Assembly: GCF_900115825.1 (NCBI RefSeq)
Contig: NZ_FOXW01000001.1
Coordinates: 496,001 to 560,000 of the forward strand
Origin: Desemzia incerta
GTDB taxonomy: Bacteria > Bacillota > Bacilli > Lactobacillales > Carnobacteriaceae
DNA: 64,000 nucleotides
Direction: 5' to 3'
Shown here one piece after another: positions 2,027-57,314 of the stretch (its first letter is position 1; each line of letters opens with the position of its first letter). The translations under genes and the position numbers were made by a program. The notes beneath the pieces are model-generated. The model worked only from the letters and a program-made list of their open reading frames with translations. It searched no databases and was not told where the DNA came from.

Positions 2027-2758
2027 TCAATGTTTGATTTTTTGTAAGCAAACTGCTATCACGAATTTAGGCAGAGCCAGCATCCGTTTGAATCTAGTGG
2101 GTTGTTTAATCAATCTGTAAAACCATTCTAAATTGTGTTTTAAATAAAATTCAGGTGCGCGTTGAGATGTTCCCGACAACACATCGAAACTTCCGCCAAC
2201 ACCCATTAAGAAACCTTTATCTGCTACTTCAAGATACTGGCTGATCCAAAGTTCTTGTTTAGGAAAACCTAAAGCTGCAAAAACCATATCAGGTTTTTTT
2301 TGCTTGACTTCTTCCAAAACTTTTTCATCCTTAAGATCAAAGTAACCATCACGATACCCAACAATATCAATATTCGGGTATTGAGCAGCAACGTTACTAA
2401 CTGCCTTTGTGACAACTGATTCCTTAGCACCTAAAAAGTAGACTTTTAACGCTTTTTTATCCGCTTCTGCCAGCAACTCCAGTAAAAGTTCATAACCTGG
2501 GACTCGTTCTTTCAAAGGCTTGCCCAGAATCTGAGCACCTTTTACAACACCAATTCCATCTGGAATGACCATATGAGCGTGTTCTAAAATTTTCATATAA
2601 GAGGAATGGTTTCGAGCGTACATGACGATTTCAGGGTTTGCAGTTACTGCAAAAGTTTTTTCTTGTTTTTCAATCCGAGATAAAATCTCAAAAACAAATT
2701 CTTGTTTTGTTTTGTTAATGAATTCGACGCCTAATATATTTACTGATGTATCTGTCAT
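2027..2758 (-). CDS. tagA: UDP-ManNAc:GlcNAc-PP-undecaprenol ManNAc transferase (WecG/TagA/CpsF family)
   Basis: Second step of wall teichoic acid linkage-unit synthesis: adds ManNAc from UDP-ManNAc to GlcNAc-diphospho-undecaprenol at the inner membrane face. The 243 residues match the family's length. Visible signatures are TANPEIVMYA (near 39), IPDGIGVV (near 65), a nucleotide-sugar fold core, and the C-terminal GVGGSFDVLSG plus RAPEF with a basic tail (KQPTRFKRM) that in the family contacts the membrane. MnaA, which makes its donor, is encoded at 20.9 kb. No tagO is present in this window. Its promoter overlaps a 9-bp inverted repeat. Confidence 0.9.
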   Translation of the reverse strand: MTDTSVNILGVEFINKTKQEFVFEILSRIEKQEKTFAVTANPEIVMYARNHSSYMKILEHAHMVIPDGIGVVKGAQILGKPLKERVPGYELLLELLAEADKKALKVYFLGAKESVVTKAVSNVAAQYPNIDIVGYRDGYFDLKDEKVLEEVKQKKPDMVFAALGFPKQELWISQYLEVADKGFLMGVGGSFDVLSGTSQRAPEFYLKHNLEWFYRLIKQPTRFKRMLALPKFVIAVCLQKIKH

Positions 2759-2802
2759 AAGTTATTCCTGTCCTATCTATCCAGTAAAATGTGTTATTTC
2801 TC

Positions 2803-2835
2803 TAACACTATACCATTAAAATACAATAGTGTTAA
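2803..2835 (-). promoter_or_regulatory. tagA-galE promoter overlapped by a 9-bp inverted repeat
   Basis: On the minus strand there is TTAACA (2830-2835), a 17-nt spacer and TATAGT (2807-2812) with an extended TG. The perfect arms TAACACTAT (2803-2811) and ATAGTGTTA (2826-2834) sit over the -10 and the -35, with centres 23 bp apart. This suggests an operator, but the regulator is unknown. Confidence 0.6.
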
Positions 2836-2899
2836 CAAGAAAAATGAATCAAAAGACTAAAAAAACTGCTTTTCCAATCTAGTAAGAAAAAGCGGAGAG

Positions 2900-2928
2900 T
2901 TCAGAATGTAACCGTTTTATGGTACTAT
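2900..2928 (+). promoter_or_regulatory. Putative gpsA promoter
   Basis: TTCAGA (2900-2905), a 17-nt spacer and TACTAT (2923-2928) preceded by TGG (extended -10), 48 bp before the gpsA start. Confidence 0.45.
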
Positions 2929-2975
2929 AGAGTAGATAATTAAAGAAAGCAGTTAATGAATGGAGAGATTAAACG

Positions 2976-3992
2976 ATGAAAACAAAAATTGCTGTCATTG
3001 GGGCAGGTTCTTGGGGAACCGCTCTAGCTAAAGTGCTGGAAGAAAATGGACATGAGCCGATTTTATACAGTAACGTAGAAGAGCAAATCAAAGAAATTAA
3101 TGAACAACACACAAATAAAACTTTTTTACCCGAATTGGTTATATCAAAAAATATCAAAGGCACTACTGATTTAAAAGAAGCTTTAGAAGACGCACAAGTG
3201 GTATTATTTGTTGTACCGACAAAAGTTACCCGTATGGTAGCTAAGCAAGTTGCGGAATTGCTGACAGATAAAGTTATTCTAGTGACAGCTAGTAAAGGTT
3301 TGGAACAACAAACGCACAAACGCATTTCTACTATCTTAGAAGAAGAAATTCCAGAAAACAAAAGAGCGGGGGTTGTAGCTTTATCCGGCCCTAGTCATGC
3401 AGAAGAAGTTGCTGTAAATGACTTAACGACTATCACAGCAGCCTCATCTGACATGGATGCTGCTGAGAAAATTCAGCAACTATTTATGAATGATTACATG
3501 AGAATCTACACAAACAAAGATATTGTGGGTGTAGAGTATGGCGCAGCCCTTAAAAACATCATTGCTTTAGGAGCGGGTGCTTTAGCGGGTCTGGGATATG
3601 GAGATAATGCCAAAGCTGCTTTGATCACTAGAGGTTTAGCTGAGATAAGCCGCCTGGGAATAGCCTTTGGGGCTGATCCGCTTACGTTCATCGGACTGAG
3701 CGGAGTTGGTGATTTGATTGTTACGTGTACGAGTATTCATTCGAGAAACTGGCAAGCGGGCAATATGATTGGAAAAGGTCATTCTTTAGATGAAGTATTA
3801 GGAAGTATGGGGATGGTCGTTGAAGGAGCTTCGACGGTCGTAGCTGCTTATGAATTAGCGAGAGAAAAAAACATCGAAATGCCTATCACTGAAGCTATCT
3901 ATGATGTTTTATACAATAATGCAGATGTTAGAGAAACTATTGTAGCTTTAATGAATCGTGATCCAAAATCTGAAGCACATTCAAAAGATTAA
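2976..3992 (+). CDS. gpsA: NAD(P)-dependent glycerol-3-phosphate dehydrogenase
   Basis: Reduces dihydroxyacetone phosphate to sn-glycerol-3-phosphate in the cytosol, feeding phospholipid synthesis and, through TagD, CDP-glycerol for teichoic acid. The N-terminal Rossmann motif is [13 protein letters not shown] (residues 8-20), followed by VTASKGLE (catalytic Lys) and [12 protein letters not shown]. The C-terminal helical domain includes [19 protein letters not shown] and [14 protein letters not shown]. The 338 residues are typical. GGAGAG lies 8 nt before the ATG. It has its own promoter and terminator, so it is probably monocistronic, beside the WTA genes. Confidence 0.96.
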
Positions 3993-4280: not shown

Positions 4281-5381
4281 ATGTTGGAAAACAAATTAAA
4301 AGTACGTATTGAGAATGTTACAAAACAATATGATCTATATAAGCAAAAGTCAGATAAAGTTAAAGCGCTGTTTAAGTTTTCTAGAAAAGATATTCCTACG
4401 TTTTGGGCTCTAAGAGGAGTTACTCTAGATGTATACGATGGCGAGACAGTTGGGTTGATAGGTGTGAATGGATCAGGTAAATCAACCCTGTCCAACATCA
4501 TTGCAGGAATCATACCGCCAACGACTGGAAAAGTAGAAGTTAATGGAGATACTTCTATTATTGCTATCTCTGCTGGTTTGAAGAATCAATTGACTGGACT
4601 AGAAAATATTCGATTAAAATCATTGATGACAGGTAAAACAAACCAAGAAATCGATGCAACCATCGATGATATCATTGATTTTGCTGAAATTGGAGATTTT
4701 ATTAATCAACCGGTAAAGAGTTACTCAAGTGGTATGAAATCGCGTCTTGGTTTTGCCATTGCAGTTCATACGGATCCGGATATTTTGATTATCGATGAAG
4801 CCCTATCAGTTGGTGATGAGACTTTCTACCAAAAGTGTGTAGACAAGATGCTAGAATTCAAAGCACAAGGAAAGACCATTTTCTTTGTTAGTCATTCATT
4901 GAATCAAGTCAAAAAGTTGTGTGATAAAATTGTGTGGATGCATTATGGTGAAGTACGTATGGCAGGTCCTGCGGAAGAAGTAGCTGCTGAATACAAAAAA
5001 TTTAGTGATGACTTTAAGAAAAAAAGTGCAAAAGACAAAAAAGCGTATCAAAACAAACACAAACAAGACCAGAAAGACTTTGATGTTCGTGCGTACTTTA
5101 AAAAACAAGAAGAACAAACAACAGACAGCAATAAATTAAAAGATTTGAATACTCAATTTGAAGAAGAAAAAGTAACCGATCGTATGAAATTGTCAACACG
5201 CTTGACGTTACTAGGTATAACATTAGCCACTGGTTTTCTAATTGGGGTGCACTTAAGCGGCAACTCACTGAGCAGTGTATTGTTTGGTGCTCAATCAGAA
5301 ACTGAGCAGACACAAGAAGCAGCAGTAGCTTTTGTTGATGAAGATACAAAATTAGTAGAAACAACTGTGGCAGACATTTAA
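4281..5381 (+). CDS. tagH: Teichoic acid ABC exporter, ATPase subunit
   Basis: Energises export of lipid-linked wall teichoic acid with the permease TagG. The N-terminal ABC domain has Walker [10 protein letters not shown] (61-69), signature YSSGMKSR (148-155), Walker B DILIIDE (167-173) and H-loop VSHS (about 203-206). The insert of [14 protein letters not shown] before the core strands is typical of polysaccharide exporters. A charged Lys-rich linker (about 240-305) leads to one transmembrane helix (about 306-325) and a short acidic, presumably extracellular tail. This is the TagH architecture, although the tail is shorter than in Bacillus. The gene is separated from tagG by a tagB-like gene, with 34-bp spacing to the latter. 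Confidence 0.93.
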
Positions 5382-5415
5382 CATAAATAGAGTTGATCTA
5401 GAAAGAAGGAGAAAG

Positions 5416-6573
5416 TTGGAACAAATCAAAAAAATAATATACGTATGGTTGATTAGGTTCTTCTCTCTTCTTTCTAAGCCTTTACCAGTCAAAAAAAGAA
5501 TTGTTTATTTAATGAGTTTTCCGAAAAATGATAATGGTTTTCTAGAGGCTTTAATCACAGAAAACCCAACCATTGAGATCGTCATTCTTTTTGAAAAAAA
5601 TTGCGAAGAAGAGGCAATAAAATTTAAAGAAGCTGGAGTTAGTCTGATGCCTATCTCTTCTTCAATAGATTTTCTACGAAAAGCAGTGCCTATTCTTATG
5701 CAAGCAAAGATCATCCTATGTGACAATTACTTCCCATTTTTAGCAGGGTTGTATCCGAACAAGGAAACAACAATCATTCAAATCTGGCATGCAAATGGAG
5801 CCATCAAACGGTTTGGTCTAGAAGATCCTACTGCCTTGAAGAGAAGCTTTTTCGATCACCTTCGCTTTAAACAAGTCTACAAACGCTTTAACGAGTACAT
5901 TGTAGGTTCAGAAATGATGGGAAGAGTCTTTCAAAAAAGTTACGGTGCAAGTAAAAGCAGTATAAAACCGTTAGGGAATCCTAGAACGGATATTTACTTC
6001 AATAAAGTATTGATGGATGAAAAAAGAGAGTTTTTCTTTGACCAGTACCCGGAGTTAAAAGATAAAAAAATTATTTTGTACGCTCCTACTTATCGAAATG
6101 GATTAGAAGACGACTATCCCTTTGATGTTCGTCGATTATATCAAGCTTTAGGAAATGAATATGCTGTTCTAATGAAAAAGCATCCCCATGTTTTGAGTAG
6201 GCCTATTGCAAATGAGTACAAAGAATTTTTTTATGGGGATTTAAGTCAGCATAAAATTGAAGATTTACTAGTAGTTACGGACATTTTGATTACAGATTAT
6301 TCTTCCATACCCTTTGATTTTACGTTGCTTGATAATGCCAAGAATATATTGTTTTACTGCTACGACTTAGAAGAATACGATCAAATAACAGGGCTGCAAA
6401 AAGATTTCAAAGAATGGGCACCTGGAGAAATCGTGCAAACGATGGATGAGTTGATCGTTCAAATAAAAAAAGAAACCTATAATGATTTTGTAGAATTTAA
6501 TGATAAATGGAATACGTACAATGATGGATATGCTATTAAACATCTTATAGAACATATTCAACAATTATTGTAG
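5416..6573 (+). CDS. tagB: TagB-like CDP-glycerol glycerophosphotransferase
   Basis: Predicted peripheral membrane GT-B enzyme that adds glycerol phosphate from CDP-glycerol to the ManNAc-GlcNAc-PP-undecaprenol linkage unit (the primase step). Family motifs in order are WHANGAIKRFG (124-134), LYAPTYRNG (221-229), KKHPHV (254-259) and ITDYSSIPFDF (292-302). The WHANGA form, rather than WHGTP, and the 385-residue length favour the TagB primase over the TagF polymerase. The start is TTG, 7 nt after AAGGAG. It lies between tagH and tagG in one operon. Role as primase versus secondary transferase is an inference. Confidence 0.78.
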   Translation: MEQIKKIIYVWLIRFFSLLSKPLPVKKRIVYLMSFPKNDNGFLEALITENPTIEIVILFEKNCEEEAIKFKEAGVSLMPISSSIDFLRKAVPILMQAKIILCDNYFPFLAGLYPNKETTIIQIWHANGAIKRFGLEDPTALKRSFFDHLRFKQVYKRFNEYIVGSEMMGRVFQKSYGASKSSIKPLGNPRTDIYFNKVLMDEKREFFFDQYPELKDKKIILYAPTYRNGLEDDYPFDVRRLYQALGNEYAVLMKKHPHVLSRPIANEYKEFFYGDLSQHKIEDLLVVTDILITDYSSIPFDFTLLDNAKNILFYCYDLEEYDQITGLQKDFKEWAPGEIVQTMDELIVQIKKETYNDFVEFNDKWNTYNDGYAIKHLIEHIQQLL

Positions 6574-51827: not shown

Positions 51828-52829
51828 ATGGATCATCCTTTAGTCAGTGTCATCATACCAACTATAGAACGGCCATATTATTTAAAGAGAGCTATAGAAA
51901 GTGTGTTGAAACAAAGTTATGACAATTTAGAGATTATTGTGGTCATAGATGGAATGTCATCCAAGACTGTTGAACTGATAGATTCTTACAAAAATAAAAG
52001 TGGGATTTCTCTGCAATGGATCGAAACAGGAAAGAAAGTAGGGGGAAGTGAAGCTAGGAATATCGGCGCCCAAAAAGCTCAAGGAGACTTTATCGCGTTA
52101 TTCGACGACGATGACGAATGGTTAGGGGATAAAATTGTTGCTCAATTAAATTTGATTAAAGAATATACTTTAACTGAAAAAGACTCGTTCGTTTGTTTTA
52201 CGTCCATTTATGTCTATGAATCGAGCGATCAAAAAAAATACAAACAACTGCCGATCGTAACTTATTTAGATAGTCGTAAAGAAAGAATAGCTGACTACTT
52301 ATTTGAAGCGAATGGATTAAAAAGAATCGGTTTGATTCAAACTTCAACCATCCTCACACCAAGACATTTGCTGTTGCAATATCCTTTCACAAAAGGACTG
52401 CCCAAACACCAAGACTGGGACTGGCTGTTGAAAGTAGATCAACTACCTGATTTGCAAGTTCTTCAAGTGAATCAACCGATGGTGATCTATCATTCAGATG
52501 TGCCAAAAGAAAAACGGATTGGACTAGCGAACCATTGGCGTTTTAGTGAAGAGTGGTTGTCAGAGCATCGAGATAGTTTTGGAAAAAATGCTTATGAAAC
52601 ATTCCTATTGGACATACTCATCCCAGGCATTATTACGGATGAATCATTATCTGGGACAGAACGTACCATAGAAATCAAAAGAATACTTTACAAATTATCT
52701 TTAAGGGCGTATAGTCGGCCGTTTACTTGGAAAATGTTGAGTTACTCCATCATCAGAAAGAATGACTACTTTTTTAAAAAAATACAGCATTCTTCCTTAC
52801 TAATGAGTGTCAAAAATTGGCTGTTTTAA
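51828..52829 (+). CDS. Glycosyltransferase family 2
   Basis: 333-residue GT-A enzyme and last gene of the exopolysaccharide operon: VIIPTIERPYYLKRAIESVL, IIVVIDGMSSKT, GGSEARNIGAQKAQGDFIALFDDDDEW (acidic metal site), and QDWDWLLKVDQLPDLQVL, followed by a basic amphipathic C-terminus. GAGGGGAG precedes the ATG. No clear terminator follows it; the next promoter begins 4 bp after the stop. Confidence 0.88.
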   Translation: MDHPLVSVIIPTIERPYYLKRAIESVLKQSYDNLEIIVVIDGMSSKTVELIDSYKNKSGISLQWIETGKKVGGSEARNIGAQKAQGDFIALFDDDDEWLGDKIVAQLNLIKEYTLTEKDSFVCFTSIYVYESSDQKKYKQLPIVTYLDSRKERIADYLFEANGLKRIGLIQTSTILTPRHLLLQYPFTKGLPKHQDWDWLLKVDQLPDLQVLQVNQPMVIYHSDVPKEKRIGLANHWRFSEEWLSEHRDSFGKNAYETFLLDILIPGIITDESLSGTERTIEIKRILYKLSLRAYSRPFTWKMLSYSIIRKNDYFFKKIQHSSLLMSVKNWLF

Positions 52830-52832
52830 TGT

Positions 52833-52861
52833 TTGACAAATCAGTGAACCTTTGTTAAGAT
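52833..52861 (+). promoter_or_regulatory. Strong promoter of the Cys-leader/symporter operon
   Basis: Consensus TTGACA (52833-52838), a 17-nt spacer and TAAGAT (52856-52861) with extended TGT. It is the best -35 in this window. Confidence 0.75.
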
Positions 52862-52872
52862 TGTTCCAGTTT

Positions 52873-52891
52873 CACTTAAGTGCGCGCTTAA
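52873..52891. promoter_or_regulatory. Palindromes at the transcription start, candidate operator
   Basis: CACTTAAGTG (52873-52882) is a perfect palindrome that overlaps TTAAG-TGCGCG-CTTAA (52876-52891). Position about 12-30 nt after the -10 suits a repressor site or a 5' stabilising hairpin. Confidence 0.4.
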
Positions 52892-52937
52892 ACAAACGAA
52901 ACATAAAAAATGATTCAATAAAAAAGGAGGAAACCAA

Positions 52938-53021
52938 ATGTTGATGTTTAACTGTTGTTGTTCATGTTGTATCAAAAACTCATGTAATCAGTTGACATCG
53001 TATGCGGTTTCTTTCAGCTAA
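52938..53021 (+). CDS. Cysteine-rich leader peptide (27 codons)
   Basis: A short ORF encoding a 27-residue peptide that starts MLMFNCCCSCCIKNSC, with six Cys codons (all TGT) among codons 6-16. It has one of the strongest ribosome sites in the window (AAAAAAGGAGG, 5-7 nt before the ATG), lies 77 bp after a strong promoter, and is followed 97 nt later by an intrinsic terminator in front of a transporter gene. This is the layout of an amino-acid attenuator leader. Poly-cysteine upstream ORFs that act as cysteine sensors are known in mycobacteria; I know of no description for this lineage. Alternative: a small metal-binding peptide. Confidence 0.72.
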   Translation: MLMFNCCCSCCIKNSCNQLTSYAVSFS

Positions 53022-53117
53022 ATAGTCTTTTTGTGTTCTATTAAATAACAGAATGTTACGGTTTTTAGGGAAAACTGTAGGCTTTTTAGATTAAACCAAT
53101 TATGAACGTAGACTGTC

Positions 53118-53155
53118 CATGAGAATTTATTTTCTCATGCACTTTTTTGTTTTTT
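53118..53155 (+). terminator. Attenuator-like intrinsic terminator
   Basis: CATGAGAA (53118-53125) pairs with TTCTCATG (53132-53139), then a T-rich tail. It lies between the leader peptide and the symporter start (53176). Leader nucleotides CTCATG (within codons 14-16) could pair with the 5' arm, but only over 6 bp. Confidence 0.75.
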
Positions 53156-53175
53156 ATAAAGAGGAGTGGAAGAAT

Positions 53176-54432
53176 GTGGAAAAAAGAGGACAATTGAAAA
53201 GGCCCAGCCTAATGATCCAAGTGGTTATAGGAGCCGTTATCGGGACTTTATTAGGTTATTTAAGCCCAGCTGTAGGAATGGAAATGGAATTTTTAGGTAC
53301 TTTATTTATGAATTTTATTCAAATGGTCATTGTGCCGTTGATTTTTCCTTTGATCGTATTAGCGATTGTAGAAATCAGCAAAGCAAAACGATTCGGCAAT
53401 GTTGCATTTAAATCTTTTGCGTATTTTTTTGTGGTAACGACATTCTTGATTGTCTTAACGCTGATTATCGGTGCTTTGAGCAACGTAGGGAACGGTCTAT
53501 TGATCGATTCCATCAGTACGGAAGCTTTGGATGGGATTGCCAACAGTATTGATTTTAGAACATTCATTTTAGGAATCATCCCAAGCAATGTTTTCCAAGC
53601 GTTTGCGGACGGCAATTTATTGCCGATCATTTTCTTCGGTATTTTCTTAGGTATTTCTCTAGTCACTATTCAAGAAAAAGCAAAACCAGTATTAGATTTT
53701 TTTGATGCTTGGATAAGTGCTATGTTCAAAATGGTCAATTACGCGATTGCCGTTGCACCGATTGGAGTATTTGGATTTTTAGCGTATGATGTGGCTACTT
53801 ACGGAGTCAGTAATTTATTGTCTCTAGGTCAGTTTGTTATTTGGGCCTATCTAGCGTATGCTGTTGTAGCATTTGTAGTGTACCCGATAATCGGTCTAGG
53901 ATTTAAGGTTCCTTATTTTTCTCTGTTAAAAGAAACAAGTGATTTATCTTTATTAGCTTTTTCAACCGGCAGTTCCAGTGTAGTGTTGCCATCTTTAATT
54001 GATCGATTGAAGAAGTTCGGTGTTCCGAGTTCAGTGGCGTCGTTTGTTACTACTCTGGGTTATTCCTTTAATCTTGGAGGAGCAGCTGTTTATACGACAT
54101 TAGCCGTCATGTTTGTAGTAAATTTATACGGTGCTTCTTTAAACGTCACTGATTATATCGCATTGGTCTTTTTCCTTACCATTATCACTAAAAGTATTGC
54201 AGCAGTCCCATCAGGAGCAGTTGTTGTTTTATTAGCTTCTGCTACTCAATTAGGCTTGCCGCCACAAGGAGTTGCGCTGCTGGTATCGATCGACTTTTTT
54301 GTCAATGCGGGACGTACAGCGCTGAACGTTGTAGGAAATGCATTAGCACCAGTAGTTATCGCGAAAACGGAAGGGAAATTTGTTCCTTCAGGCGTTTTGA
54401 ATGAAAAAGAGAGCTCAAATTTGGTAAAATAA
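53176..54432 (+). CDS. DAACS-family amino acid:cation symporter
   Basis: 418-residue glutamate-transporter-fold protein with eight helices and two re-entrant hairpins. The HP1 serine-rich tip is FSTGSSSVVLP, TM7 is SFNLGGAAVYTT (in place of the NMDGT motif), HP2 is AAVPSGAVVVLL, and TM8 is DFFVNAGRTALNVVGN. The missing TM7 Asp and the Asn at two usual Asp positions in TM8 argue against a standard aspartate/glutamate carrier. The frame is open from 53119, but that ATG lies inside the terminator. The GTG at 53176 has GAGGAG 9 nt upstream. The poly-Cys leader suggests cysteine or cystine uptake (inference). Confidence 0.82.
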   Translation: MEKRGQLKRPSLMIQVVIGAVIGTLLGYLSPAVGMEMEFLGTLFMNFIQMVIVPLIFPLIVLAIVEISKAKRFGNVAFKSFAYFFVVTTFLIVLTLIIGALSNVGNGLLIDSISTEALDGIANSIDFRTFILGIIPSNVFQAFADGNLLPIIFFGIFLGISLVTIQEKAKPVLDFFDAWISAMFKMVNYAIAVAPIGVFGFLAYDVATYGVSNLLSLGQFVIWAYLAYAVVAFVVYPIIGLGFKVPYFSLLKETSDLSLLAFSTGSSSVVLPSLIDRLKKFGVPSSVASFVTTLGYSFNLGGAAVYTTLAVMFVVNLYGASLNVTDYIALVFFLTIITKSIAAVPSGAVVVLLASATQLGLPPQGVALLVSIDFFVNAGRTALNVVGNALAPVVIAKTEGKFVPSGVLNEKESSNLVK

Positions 54433-54461
54433 GAAGATAAGAAATGGAGTGGACATGAAAT

Positions 54462-55424
54462 ATGAAAAAAGTTTATATTATTCACGAAAATGATGATTGG
54501 ACAAGACACTTGACAGCTCGATTAGACGAATTGAACGTACCTTATGAAAACTGGGATCTATCTGAAGGGTTAGTAGATATTCAAGCTGCACCGCCAGAAG
54601 GTATTTTTTATAATCGTATGAGTGCTTCTTCTCATACCAGAGGTCATCGTTATGCTCCAGAATTGACAGACAATTTATTGCATTGGTTAGAAAGCTATGG
54701 AGCTACAGTAATCAATGGTACCGGAGCAATTGAATTAGAAGTCAGCAAATTAAAACAACATTTAGCATTGAAAACAAACGGAATCAACACTCCAGAAACT
54801 ATTGGTGCTGTAGGAAAAGAAAATATTATCCAAGCAGCTGAAAAGTTGAATCGTTTTCCATTTATCATCAAACACAATCGTGCCGGAAAAGGGCTCGGAG
54901 TACGTTTGATGTATACAATCCAAGATCTGAAAGACTATGTTTATGGGCCGGAATTTGAAGATTCTATTGATGGAATCAGCTTGATCCAACAATACGTTCG
55001 CCCAGCTGATGGAAACATTGTCCGTTCTGAATTTATTGGCGGAAAATTCTTTTATGCTGTAAAAGTTGATTCCAGTGATGGTTTTGAACTTTGTCCAGCA
55101 GATAATTGCCAAATTCCTATTGGAACAGAAATGTGCCCAGCAGAAGAACCTGAAGAGTTGACACCAAGTAAATTTAAAATCAAAGAAGATGGATTACCAC
55201 AAGCTCAAATCGACTTATACGAAGCATTCTTAAAACAACAACGTATTGACGTGGCAGCGATTGAGTTCATCGAAACCGAAGGCGGTCAAAGGTATGCGTA
55301 TGATGTAAACACCAATACAAATTACAATGCAGACGCCGAAAGAGAAGCTGGCAAATATGCTATGTTGCAATTAGCAACGTATTTGAAAAATGAGTTGGAA
55401 AAAACAGCAGCTGTAGAAGTTTAA
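54462..55424 (+). CDS. ATP-grasp ligase (RimK/glutathione-synthetase-like)
   Basis: 320-residue cytosolic ATP-dependent carboxylate-amine (or thiol) ligase. ATP-grasp elements: LEVSKLKQHLALKTNGI, FPFIIKHNRAGKGLGVRLM (ATP-binding Lys and glycine loop, about 125-143), SLIQQYVRP, and AAIEFIETEGGQRYAYDVNTNTNYN (metal-binding Glu and Asn, about 265-289). It follows the symporter by 29 bp in the same operon, so its substrate is probably the imported amino acid. Which peptide or conjugate it makes cannot be told from sequence. Confidence 0.82.
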   Translation: MKKVYIIHENDDWTRHLTARLDELNVPYENWDLSEGLVDIQAAPPEGIFYNRMSASSHTRGHRYAPELTDNLLHWLESYGATVINGTGAIELEVSKLKQHLALKTNGINTPETIGAVGKENIIQAAEKLNRFPFIIKHNRAGKGLGVRLMYTIQDLKDYVYGPEFEDSIDGISLIQQYVRPADGNIVRSEFIGGKFFYAVKVDSSDGFELCPADNCQIPIGTEMCPAEEPEELTPSKFKIKEDGLPQAQIDLYEAFLKQQRIDVAAIEFIETEGGQRYAYDVNTNTNYNADAEREAGKYAMLQLATYLKNELEKTAAVEV

Positions 55425-55447: not shown

Positions 55448-55487
55448 AAAATTCTTCCTGTGATTTTTCATCAGGAAGAATTTTTTT
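55448..55487. terminator. Bidirectional intrinsic terminator
   Basis: AAAATTCTTCCTG (55448-55460) pairs with CAGGAAGAATTTT (55472-55484) between convergent genes. Confidence 0.92.
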
Positions 55488-56361
55488 ATAGTTTGTATTC
55501 TGAAGGCACTATGTCAATATAGTCGGTAAAGATACCAGTAGCGCCGATATCAATCAAATCTAAAATTTCATCTTCAGAATTAACTGTATAAGGATGTAAT
55601 TCGAGGCCTGCTTGACGAACTTGTTGCGCAAACGATTCAGTTACTGATTTATAGTTTACTCCAATACCTATAGCATATTTCTTTATCTCTGTGATTCTTT
55701 CTTGAGAAATAATGGCATTCTCGTTGTATTGAACTAACTGAATTAAAGGGATATCTGGGCAGATTTCATGAACAGCTTCGAGACTTTTTTGACTAAAAGA
55801 TTGGATAATAACTTTATTGTTCGATGTATTATCCACTAGTTGATATTCATCTACTAGTTTTAATAACTTTTGTTCCATGTGTTTATAGTCATCTGGCGAT
55901 TTAGTTTCAATATAATAATTAACAGAAGTTCCAAATCTTTCAAAAACTTCTCTTAAAGTAGGTACAGTTAATCCGATATAGTTTTCATGCGCTTTATTAG
56001 GAAACTTTTCATTAAACCAGCTTCCAGCATCCAATTGCTGCAACTCTTTTAAAGTATAAGACTTCACTAAACCCTTACCATTTGTCGTACGTTCAAGGCT
56101 CTCATCGTGCATGGCTATCAATTCGCCATCTTTTGTTTGTTGTAAGTCAATTTCCAAGTAGTCAGCGCCCATTTCAGTAGCTAACTGATAAGATTCTAAC
56201 GTATGCTCAGGGGCATAGCCACTTGCTCCGCGATGACCTATTATTAAAAACTGTTGCGATTCATTTTGTGTTAAGGTTTCAACTGTATCTTCTTGAACTA
56301 TTGTTTTTAAAAAGAGAATACTTCCTATTAATAAAACTATTCCAACTCCTATTTTTTTCAT
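55486..56361 (-). CDS. Secreted or membrane-anchored glycerophosphodiester phosphodiesterase
   Basis: 291-residue GDPD enzyme with an N-terminal hydrophobic segment (4-21), so extracellular. TIM-barrel motifs are IIGHRGASGYAPEHTLESY (catalytic His and Arg), GADYLEIDLQQTKDGELIAMHDESLERTT (metal Glu/Asp, second His), YYIETKSPD and LELHPYTVNSEDE. It releases glycerol-3-phosphate from glycerophosphodiesters, including possibly poly(glycerol phosphate) teichoic acids. The stop codon overlaps the tail of the shared terminator. Confidence 0.9.
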   Translation of the reverse strand: MKKIGVGIVLLIGSILFLKTIVQEDTVETLTQNESQQFLIIGHRGASGYAPEHTLESYQLATEMGADYLEIDLQQTKDGELIAMHDESLERTTNGKGLVKSYTLKELQQLDAGSWFNEKFPNKAHENYIGLTVPTLREVFERFGTSVNYYIETKSPDDYKHMEQKLLKLVDEYQLVDNTSNNKVIIQSFSQKSLEAVHEICPDIPLIQLVQYNENAIISQERITEIKKYAIGIGVNYKSVTESFAQQVRQAGLELHPYTVNSEDEILDLIDIGATGIFTDYIDIVPSEYKL

Positions 56362-56539: not shown

Positions 56540-56573
56540 AAATGTAAATTGGTAAAAAAAGGAGTTGAAGAGA

Positions 56574-57314
56574 GTGCAAAAGAAACCTTTGAACTTTGCT
56601 CATAGAGGATTCAGCGGAAAATATCCGGAAAATACTATGCTGGCTTTTCAAAAAGCTTTCGAAGTAGGAGTGGACGGTATCGAGATTGATATTCAATTGA
56701 CGAAAGATCAAGAATTGATCGTGATTCATGACACTACTGTTAATAGAACAACGGATGGAAAAGGGTATGTCAAAGATAAGACGCTAAAAGAGCTGGAGCA
56801 GCTCAATGCGGCTCACAAGTTTCCTGAAATCCATGACAAGGAAAAAATACCAACCTTACGAGAGTACTTCGATTGGGTAAAAGAAAAACCTTTAGTGACT
56901 AATATAGAATTAAAAACGAATGTATTTGAATATGCGGGTATTGAGGAAATGGTGGTAAAACTCATCCAAGAATATCAATTGCAGCATACAATCATTTTTT
57001 CTTCATTCAACCATTACACTATCCAGAAATTGAAAGCATTAGATCCGACAATCAAATGCGGCTTATTATCTTCGGATTGGCTCGTTGACTTTGGAGAATA
57101 TGCTAGGAAAGTCGGGGTAGAATGTGTTCATCCTGCTCACTATACGTTGCAGAATTCTGTAGTCTTAAAAAATATCCAAGAGAGTCATCTAGAAATCAAC
57201 ACTTGGACAGTCAATAAAGAAGAGCAAATGAGAAACTTGGTCCAATCTGGTGTGACGAGCATCATTACAAATTATCCAGATAAATTAAATAAAGTACTAG
57301 CAGAATCGAAATAA
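56574..57314 (+). CDS. ugpQ: Cytosolic glycerophosphodiester phosphodiesterase
   Basis: 246-residue GDPD without signal peptide. NFAHRGFSGKYPENTMLAF (catalytic His/Arg, about 8-26), GVDGIEIDIQLTKDQELIVIHDTTVNRTT, VTNIELKTN and EINTWTVNKEEQM match the short UgpQ type. It hydrolyses imported or lipid-derived glycerophosphodiesters to glycerol-3-phosphate. A TTG at 56565 overlaps the ribosome site AAGGAG; the GTG at 56574 has 9-nt spacing and is chosen. Confidence 0.9.
   Translation: MQKKPLNFAHRGFSGKYPENTMLAFQKAFEVGVDGIEIDIQLTKDQELIVIHDTTVNRTTDGKGYVKDKTLKELEQLNAAHKFPEIHDKEKIPTLREYFDWVKEKPLVTNIELKTNVFEYAGIEEMVVKLIQEYQLQHTIIFSSFNHYTIQKLKALDPTIKCGLLSSDWLVDFGEYARKVGVECVHPAHYTLQNSVVLKNIQESHLEINTWTVNKEEQMRNLVQSGVTSIITNYPDKLNKVLAESK

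Follow-up and report, generated by a model that had tools for sequence, protein, structure and literature searches.

The window (the whole 64-kb stretch of Desemzia DNA that we analyzed) includes an operon that encodes a symporter and an ATP-grasp ligase. Ahead of these genes lie a promoter, a short ORF that is rich in cysteine codons, and an intrinsic terminator:

52833–52861, + strand: sigma-70-type promoter, with TTGACA at 52833–52838, a 17-nt spacer, and TAAGAT at 52856–52861 (read directly)
52876–52891, + strand: palindrome TTAAGTGCGCGCTTAA, directly past the expected transcription start; operator or 5' hairpin (read directly)
52926–52935, + strand: 5' arm of a helix whose other arm is at the end of the leader ORF; it includes the leader's Shine-Dalgarno GGAGG at 52926–52930
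52938–53021, + strand: poly-Cys leader ORF of 27 codons, MLMFNCCCSCCIKNSCNQLTSYAVSFS, with ATG at 52938 and stop at 53019–53021
52953–52985, + strand: cluster of six TGT codons (codons 6, 7, 8, 10, 11, and 16), read directly and conserved in relatives
52979–53016, + strand: leader arm of the predicted antiterminator, with core CTCATG at 52979–52984 and CAGTT at 52989–52993 (from duplex computation and the synonymous-recoding null)
53006–53015, + strand: GGTTTCTTTC, the 3' arm that pairs with the leader's own Shine-Dalgarno
53088–53124, + strand: distal arm of the predicted antiterminator, which takes in the terminator's 5' arm, CATGAG at 53118–53123 (from duplex computation)
53118–53148, + strand: intrinsic terminator hairpin and T6 run, with the stem at 53118–53125/53132–53139 and T6 at 53143–53148
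53176–54432, + strand: SDF/DAACS-family symporter (PF00375), starting with GTG at 53176; the longest start in the ORF list is at 53119, in the same frame
54462–55424, + strand: RimK-like ATP-grasp ligase (PF08443), the second gene of the operon

The symporter's GTG is 36 nt past the terminator hairpin, and the upstream neighbor of the leader region is a glycosyltransferase-like ORF (read by eye). A preliminary description of this DNA had listed the promoter, the 27-codon ORF with its six TGT codons, the ribosome site, the terminator, and the symporter's start, and direct reading bore out all of them. We also scanned both strands of the 64 kb for ORFs of 8–60 codons that have a ribosome site and 3 or more Cys within a stretch of 7 codons. 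This yields the leader ORF and one minus-strand ORF; at a threshold of at least 4 Cys, it yields the leader ORF only.

Beyond the operon are two divergent ORFs (55486–56361 on the − strand and 56565–57314 on the + strand) that resemble glycerophosphodiester phosphodiesterases by eye. Among the 80 of 105 loci listed, the relatives of the ATP-grasp ligase (54462–55424) are 51–92% identical to it and are mostly from Bacilli and Gammaproteobacteria.

Conservation of the leader at the symporter/ligase operon

Within an 18-genome family, seven genomes besides the window's have orthologs of the symporter (62–81% identity). The preliminary description had suggested a search for the leader at homologous symporters, and the leader is present at all 7 of these. 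Including the window, each of the 8 close orthologs is preceded by a terminator and a leader that has 6 or 7 Cys, and is followed by the ligase. Outside these eight, Atopococcus (L038/L114, MKKQMCVQTVCCCCPCCPTKGSSCC...) has the leader, the symporter, and the ligase. In the window and in 7/7 of the other close orthologs, the short ORF with its ribosome site is kept as an ORF. In all, we collected 19 leaders, and a hairpin with a T run follows each of the 19 in this first collection. Another locus (L152 in genome G792, MLMCNCMGMCMCCHQ...) has the leader and the symporter, and ends inside the symporter, before any ligase. We use “Carnobacterium-type” for genus g4 (including G011), which we take to be Carnobacterium.

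For codon conservation, we considered the 14 of the 19 collected leaders that are free of gaps. Both Desemzia-type leaders, including the window's, have a short deletion and are outside this count; these two keep the Cys cluster despite the deletion. Among the gap-free leaders, Cys is found at codons 12, 14, 15, and 20 in 14/14, at codon 11 in 13, and at codon 6 in 12, while codons 7, 8, 9, 13, 16, 17, and 21 are variable. In other words, the Cys codons are kept in these 14 leaders while the flanks drift, which is what the preliminary description had proposed to look for.

More broadly, a search of 395 genomes from the order gave the symporter at E ≤ 1e-90 in 22; we found the leader in 9 of these 22 and did not find it at the other 13 symporter orthologs. 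The orthologs in f4 g9 (n = 2) and in f3 g8 (n = 11; presumably Streptococcus) have the ligase downstream, and there is no poly-Cys ORF among their listed upstream ORFs.

The symporter leaders (in the window, L003, L004–L009, and L038) also have a palindrome past the promoter. Its sequence differs by genus (TTAAGTGCGCACTTAA, GGTGAGCGCTCACC, TTTGAGGCCTCAA), and by eye, its outer arms co-vary. It could be either a stabilizing hairpin at the 5' end or an operator.

RNA pairing and a model of ribosome stalling

On its own, the leader RNA from the window folds little better than shuffled sequences do (z = −1.81, 8/200). A consensus fold of 8 leaders (from RNAalifold) includes the terminator as well as a helix between the leader's GGAGGAAGCC and the end of its own ORF. 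We then counted standard pairs in alignment A4, which includes 17 of the 19 leaders (L114 and L137 were left out). Standard pairs account for 91.1% of cells in the Shine-Dalgarno helix and 94.1% of cells in the antiterminator core (CACTCATG:CATGAGTG), as compared to 38–57% in slid controls for the two together. Covariation is modest: both sides change in 3 of 18 pairs, and 19 of 500 shuffles reach that.

The full predicted antiterminator is a long, imperfect duplex. It joins the 3' half of the leader ORF to a 45-nt segment whose end lies just beyond the 5' arm of the terminator. In the first collection, these leader:terminator duplexes have energies of −21 to −33 kcal/mol. The preliminary description had seen no strong antiterminator, only a 6-nt pairing of CTCATG with CATGAG; this pairing turns out to be the core of the window's longer duplex (−21.1 kcal/mol), which is matched by 2/300 synonymous recodings of the leader and by 9/300 shuffled partners. 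Across the 19 leaders, at most 15/300 synonymous recodings do as well in 17 cases, and at most 9/300 shuffled partners do as well in 18 cases. L142 is the exception in both nulls, and its row is void because of a wrong anchor (as L232, it gives 3/200). The synonymous null was failed by L137 (115/300) and by the L219 leader (51/300). We also swapped leaders and terminators among six classes. On average, a class's own partner was best in 5 of 6 terminator columns and in 4 of 6 leader rows, and with foreign terminators, several single leaders pair at least as well as with their own.

In L152, the reading frame of the leader (1522–1626) is shifted past the Cys cluster, relative to the Desemzia leaders, while the cluster, the terminator, and the pairing are kept. 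(The leader:terminator duplex is −24.1 kcal/mol, and 8/300 synonymous recodings are equally good.) This frameshift is a natural test, and it suggests that the RNA, and not the peptide, is what matters there.

The preliminary description had read the locus as a cysteine-responsive leader, and the fixed Cys codons, the complementary segments of the antiterminator, and the recurrence of the leader at other genes for cysteine supply (see below) support this. Judging from its sequence, the window's leader is most likely a transcription attenuator that is mediated by the ribosome and responds to cysteine by sensing charged tRNA-Cys. If cysteine is short, the leading ribosome would stall in the TGT cluster and would keep the 5' half of the leader open, including the Shine-Dalgarno helix. 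The stall would free the segment from about codon 15 to the stop codon, which would pair with the sequence through the 5' arm of the terminator. This pairing would block the terminator, and the symporter/ligase operon would be transcribed. If cysteine is ample, the ribosome would cover that same segment, so the terminator would form and transcription would end; also, the helix between the Shine-Dalgarno and the end of the leader would limit re-initiation. We infer that the leader is translated, that ribosomes stall on it, and that the terminator is then read through; the symporter would import cysteine/cystine or a precursor of cysteine.

We modeled the stall by hiding all RNA up to a point 15 nt beyond where the A-site codon starts and computing, for a transcript that does not yet include the terminator's 3' arm, how far the 5' arm pairs upstream. 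In 7 of 8 leaders, this pairing is 0.67–1.0 when the A site is at the first few Cys codons of the cluster, 0.09–0.69 when it is at the last one or two, and below 0.1 by codons 11–20. In the window, the pairing is 0.67 at codons 6–9, 0.55 at codon 10, 0.09 at codon 11, 0.02 at codon 12, and about 0.5 at codons 14–16; in several leaders, it is back at 0.3–0.75 at later codons. L003 shows no clear drop with ribosome position (0.46–0.82). If there is no ribosome, then the pairing is 0.06 in the window and 0.41–0.88 in the other seven leaders. With full-length RNA, the terminator is favored nearly everywhere (the exceptions are L135 at codons 4–10, with 0.29–0.41, and L009 at codon 10, with 0.33), so antitermination would have to be kinetic.

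Poly-cysteine leaders at other genes

With a covariance model built from the leader (R1), we found matches in 13 of the 395 genomes of the order, in some of them twice. We read the genes downstream of the leaders found with R1 or a second model (R2) by eye, and we scanned ten of them for domains. At L139–L143 and L135, the leader precedes a cysK-like PLP enzyme (below the NCBIfam cut-off) and then a cystathionine gamma-lyase-type enzyme (above the cut-off of PRK07671); these operons are from 5 genomes of g4 and from G004. In L226, such an operon also includes a methyltransferase and LuxS (above its cut-off). Other leaders precede OppA-like binding proteins (SBP_bac_5; L136/L224 and L133/L223, and, by eye, L138/L225) or a pair of LysR and CysK (L137/L220). 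The L137 genome has a second leader (L219, found by R2 with E = 5.2e-4), which precedes a peptidase C26 protein. What the preliminary description noticed at one operon extends further than it thought.

In L223 (from G007; 2752–3789 and 4382–6016), the oppA-like gene is separated from the leader's terminator by an inserted gene for a reverse transcriptase (RVT_1; by eye, it resembles that of a group II intron).

With stricter filters, the window was R2's only match among 398 genomes of the phylum, which means that R2 does not recognize leaders of this type outside close relatives. We read five weak matches of R2 in the genome of the window, none of which is poly-Cys, and another R2 match (L202) is an unrelated ORF of 73 aa.

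To survey the order, we used a Carnobacterium-type cysK-like protein as the query, which gave 88 matches in 86 of the 395 genomes. We read the upstream regions of 70 of the 88 matches and of 3 of 201 plasmid records, or 73 in all, and looked for a small ORF that has a ribosome site and 3 or more Cys within 7 codons. Such a leader lies upstream in 56/73 cases, versus 1/73 on the antisense strand and 0–2/73 in eight shuffles. If we separate orthologs of cysK/CBS from paralogs (L288–L295, under 50% identity; this split was drawn after the scores were known), then the leader is found at 56 of 65 orthologs and at 0 of 8 paralogs. The 53 chromosomal orthologs with leaders span six families and 22 genera. 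The leader peptides are diverse (for example, CCCMVxKSSI..., NCCSTTRFRCCTAC, and GCCCTCCTVYSSC) and have little in common beyond the Cys run. A terminator lies behind 53 of the 56 leaders, and for 26 of 53 leader:terminator duplexes, no more than 5% of synonymous recodings do as well. In E. faecalis, the gene for the hypothetical protein WP_002355203.1 (L259 3274–3411; 45 aa, with CCC) lies upstream of one for cysteine synthase, and the protein is probably a leader peptide of this kind.

We counted all nine of the remaining orthologs as misses. Five of them (L249, L255, L257, L266, and L286) have Cys-rich leader ORFs that fall just outside our criterion, L279 has a remnant with one Cys, and L235–L237 have none. 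Outside the 73, a Priestia megaterium plasmid has a 60% identical cysK; by eye, the 500 nt ahead of this gene do not include a poly-Cys leader.

We ran the stall model for ten of the order-wide cysK leaders, with a fixed edge of 15 nt. L259 (from an E. faecalis plasmid) and L244 behaved as expected, L234 and L262 did so in part, and six did not. As modeled, the stall mechanism suits the window's class better than most other leaders, so for many of those leaders the mechanism is less certain.

On balance, we lean toward a broader view, which is that leaders across the Lactobacillales form an order-wide and previously undescribed class of cysteine leader-peptide attenuators. This class would have taken over reverse transsulfuration (cysK/CBS–cystathionine lyase) and, in the Carnobacteriaceae line, would have been copied into a cysteine regulon of several operons (symporter/ligase, peptide uptake, the peptidase C26 gene, and LysR–cysK). 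Leaders of very different sequence would have nothing in common but the Cys run and the logic. In the window's class, the end of the ORF would shut the leader's own ribosome site.

Could the poly-Cys ORF act via Rho or translational coupling, as proposed for mycobacterial cysteine leaders, with the hairpin as a mere 3' end or RNA stabilizer? In the accessible part of PMC1262725, the mycobacterial leaders are said to be without conserved terminator hairpins and may use Rho, and the poor results of the stall model for six of ten order-wide leaders would fit. We consider this unlikely, because a hairpin with a T run follows 19/19 leaders of the first collection and 53/56 order-wide leaders, and because in the window's class, the terminator's 5' arm is complementary to the leader. 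Alternatively, a DNA-binding regulator at the palindrome near the transcription start might be the main control, with a leader that is minor or decayed. By eye, the symporter leaders of Desemzia, Carnobacterium-type genomes, and Atopococcus do have a palindrome past the promoter, but its sequence varies from genus to genus and the Cys codons do not, and such a regulator leaves the recurrence of the leader at other cysteine genes unexplained, which makes this very unlikely.

It is even less plausible that the ORF encodes a functional small Cys-rich peptide (for binding metals or thiols) and is linked to cysteine through its product. The Cys content is high, and the N-terminal MKKM is conserved in Carnobacterium-type leaders. 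However, the order-wide leaders share little beyond the Cys run, L152 is frameshifted past the Cys cluster and keeps its RNA pairing, and codon choice in the collected leaders serves pairing of the RNA. Finally, small ORFs are common, but given the recurrence, the antisense and shuffle controls, and the conservation of the Cys codons in relatives, we give almost no weight to a random small ORF that happens to be near a terminator.

These leaders are likely to act as a cysteine sensor for genes in bacteria of food and of the gut, and they offer a testable candidate mechanism for the control of cysK2-ctl1-cysE2 in L. paracasei. A role in cysteine or thiol metabolism is also probable for the ATP-grasp ligase and for this branch of SDF symporters.

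Comparison with known systems

No T-box was found by Rfam in positions 52000–54600 of the window at E ≤ 5, and in 13 related loci, no Rfam family reached its gathering score. (Two sub-threshold Rfam matches in the window region were set aside as chance.) For L. paracasei FAM18149, the accessible part of PMC6004538 reports that cysK2-ctl1-cysE2 has high coverage of its 5' UTR and a terminator, that it is induced without cysteine and has no T-box, and that the mechanism is “yet to be discovered.” L258, a plasmid operon from a different strain of L. paracasei, has the same gene order, with MTQSMFNAINCCCRTTRFWRCSAC ahead of a terminator that resembles the one in FAM18149, and we infer that the two operons are equivalent. 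The accessible part of PMC6004538 also quotes a palindromic motif of lactobacilli, AAAGGGCGCGAA-N-TTCGCGCCTTTT (Liu et al. 2012), and treats it as a motif covered by the terminator; the terminator in L258 is close to this motif and lies there behind the ORF MTQSMFNAINCCCRTTRFWRCSAC. The term “leader peptide” is absent from the main text of PMC6004538. In the open-access literature, we found no report of a cysteine leader peptide in Lactobacillales, which is a weak negative, as subscription papers were mostly outside the scope of the search.

The leader-peptide attenuator is a kind of regulator that is already known; what is new is the bacterial group, the breadth, and the regulon. Classical attenuators of the trp/his type have a run of regulatory codons in a short ORF and an antiterminator that competes with an intrinsic terminator. 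The leaders described here share with them the codon run in an ORF with a ribosome site, a predicted antiterminator versus the terminator, and downstream genes that supply (or, for the symporter, would supply) that amino acid. They differ in that the amino acid is cysteine, the bacteria are an order of Firmicutes, the end of the leader ORF pairs back onto its own Shine-Dalgarno, and the system is known from sequence.

In 2020, Canestrari et al. reportedly described polycysteine short ORFs in mycobacteria that are leaderless. They and the window's leader would have in common a cysteine-responsive poly-Cys ORF ahead of an operon, but the window's leader has a Shine-Dalgarno (52926–52930) and starts about 70 nt past the expected transcription start. 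According to the accessible part of PMC1262725, cysteine leader peptides are on record in Actinobacteria, and the mycobacterial ones are without conserved terminator hairpins, whereas the window's leader has an intrinsic terminator.

Leader-peptide attenuation in place of T-boxes has a parallel within the Firmicutes: the accessible portion of PMC2965389 describes histidine leader peptides at hisS and hisZ in Bacilli, which differ from ours in the amino acid and the genes. As far as the accessible text of PMC8632094 goes, the uORFC-8-2 motif of Rhodobacterales, upstream of cysS, shares with the window's leader a uORF with Cys codons, an intrinsic terminator, and proposed attenuation. That motif has two tandem Cys codons and is found at one gene (cysS) in Alphaproteobacteria, whereas the window's leader precedes a symporter/ligase operon in Desemzia.
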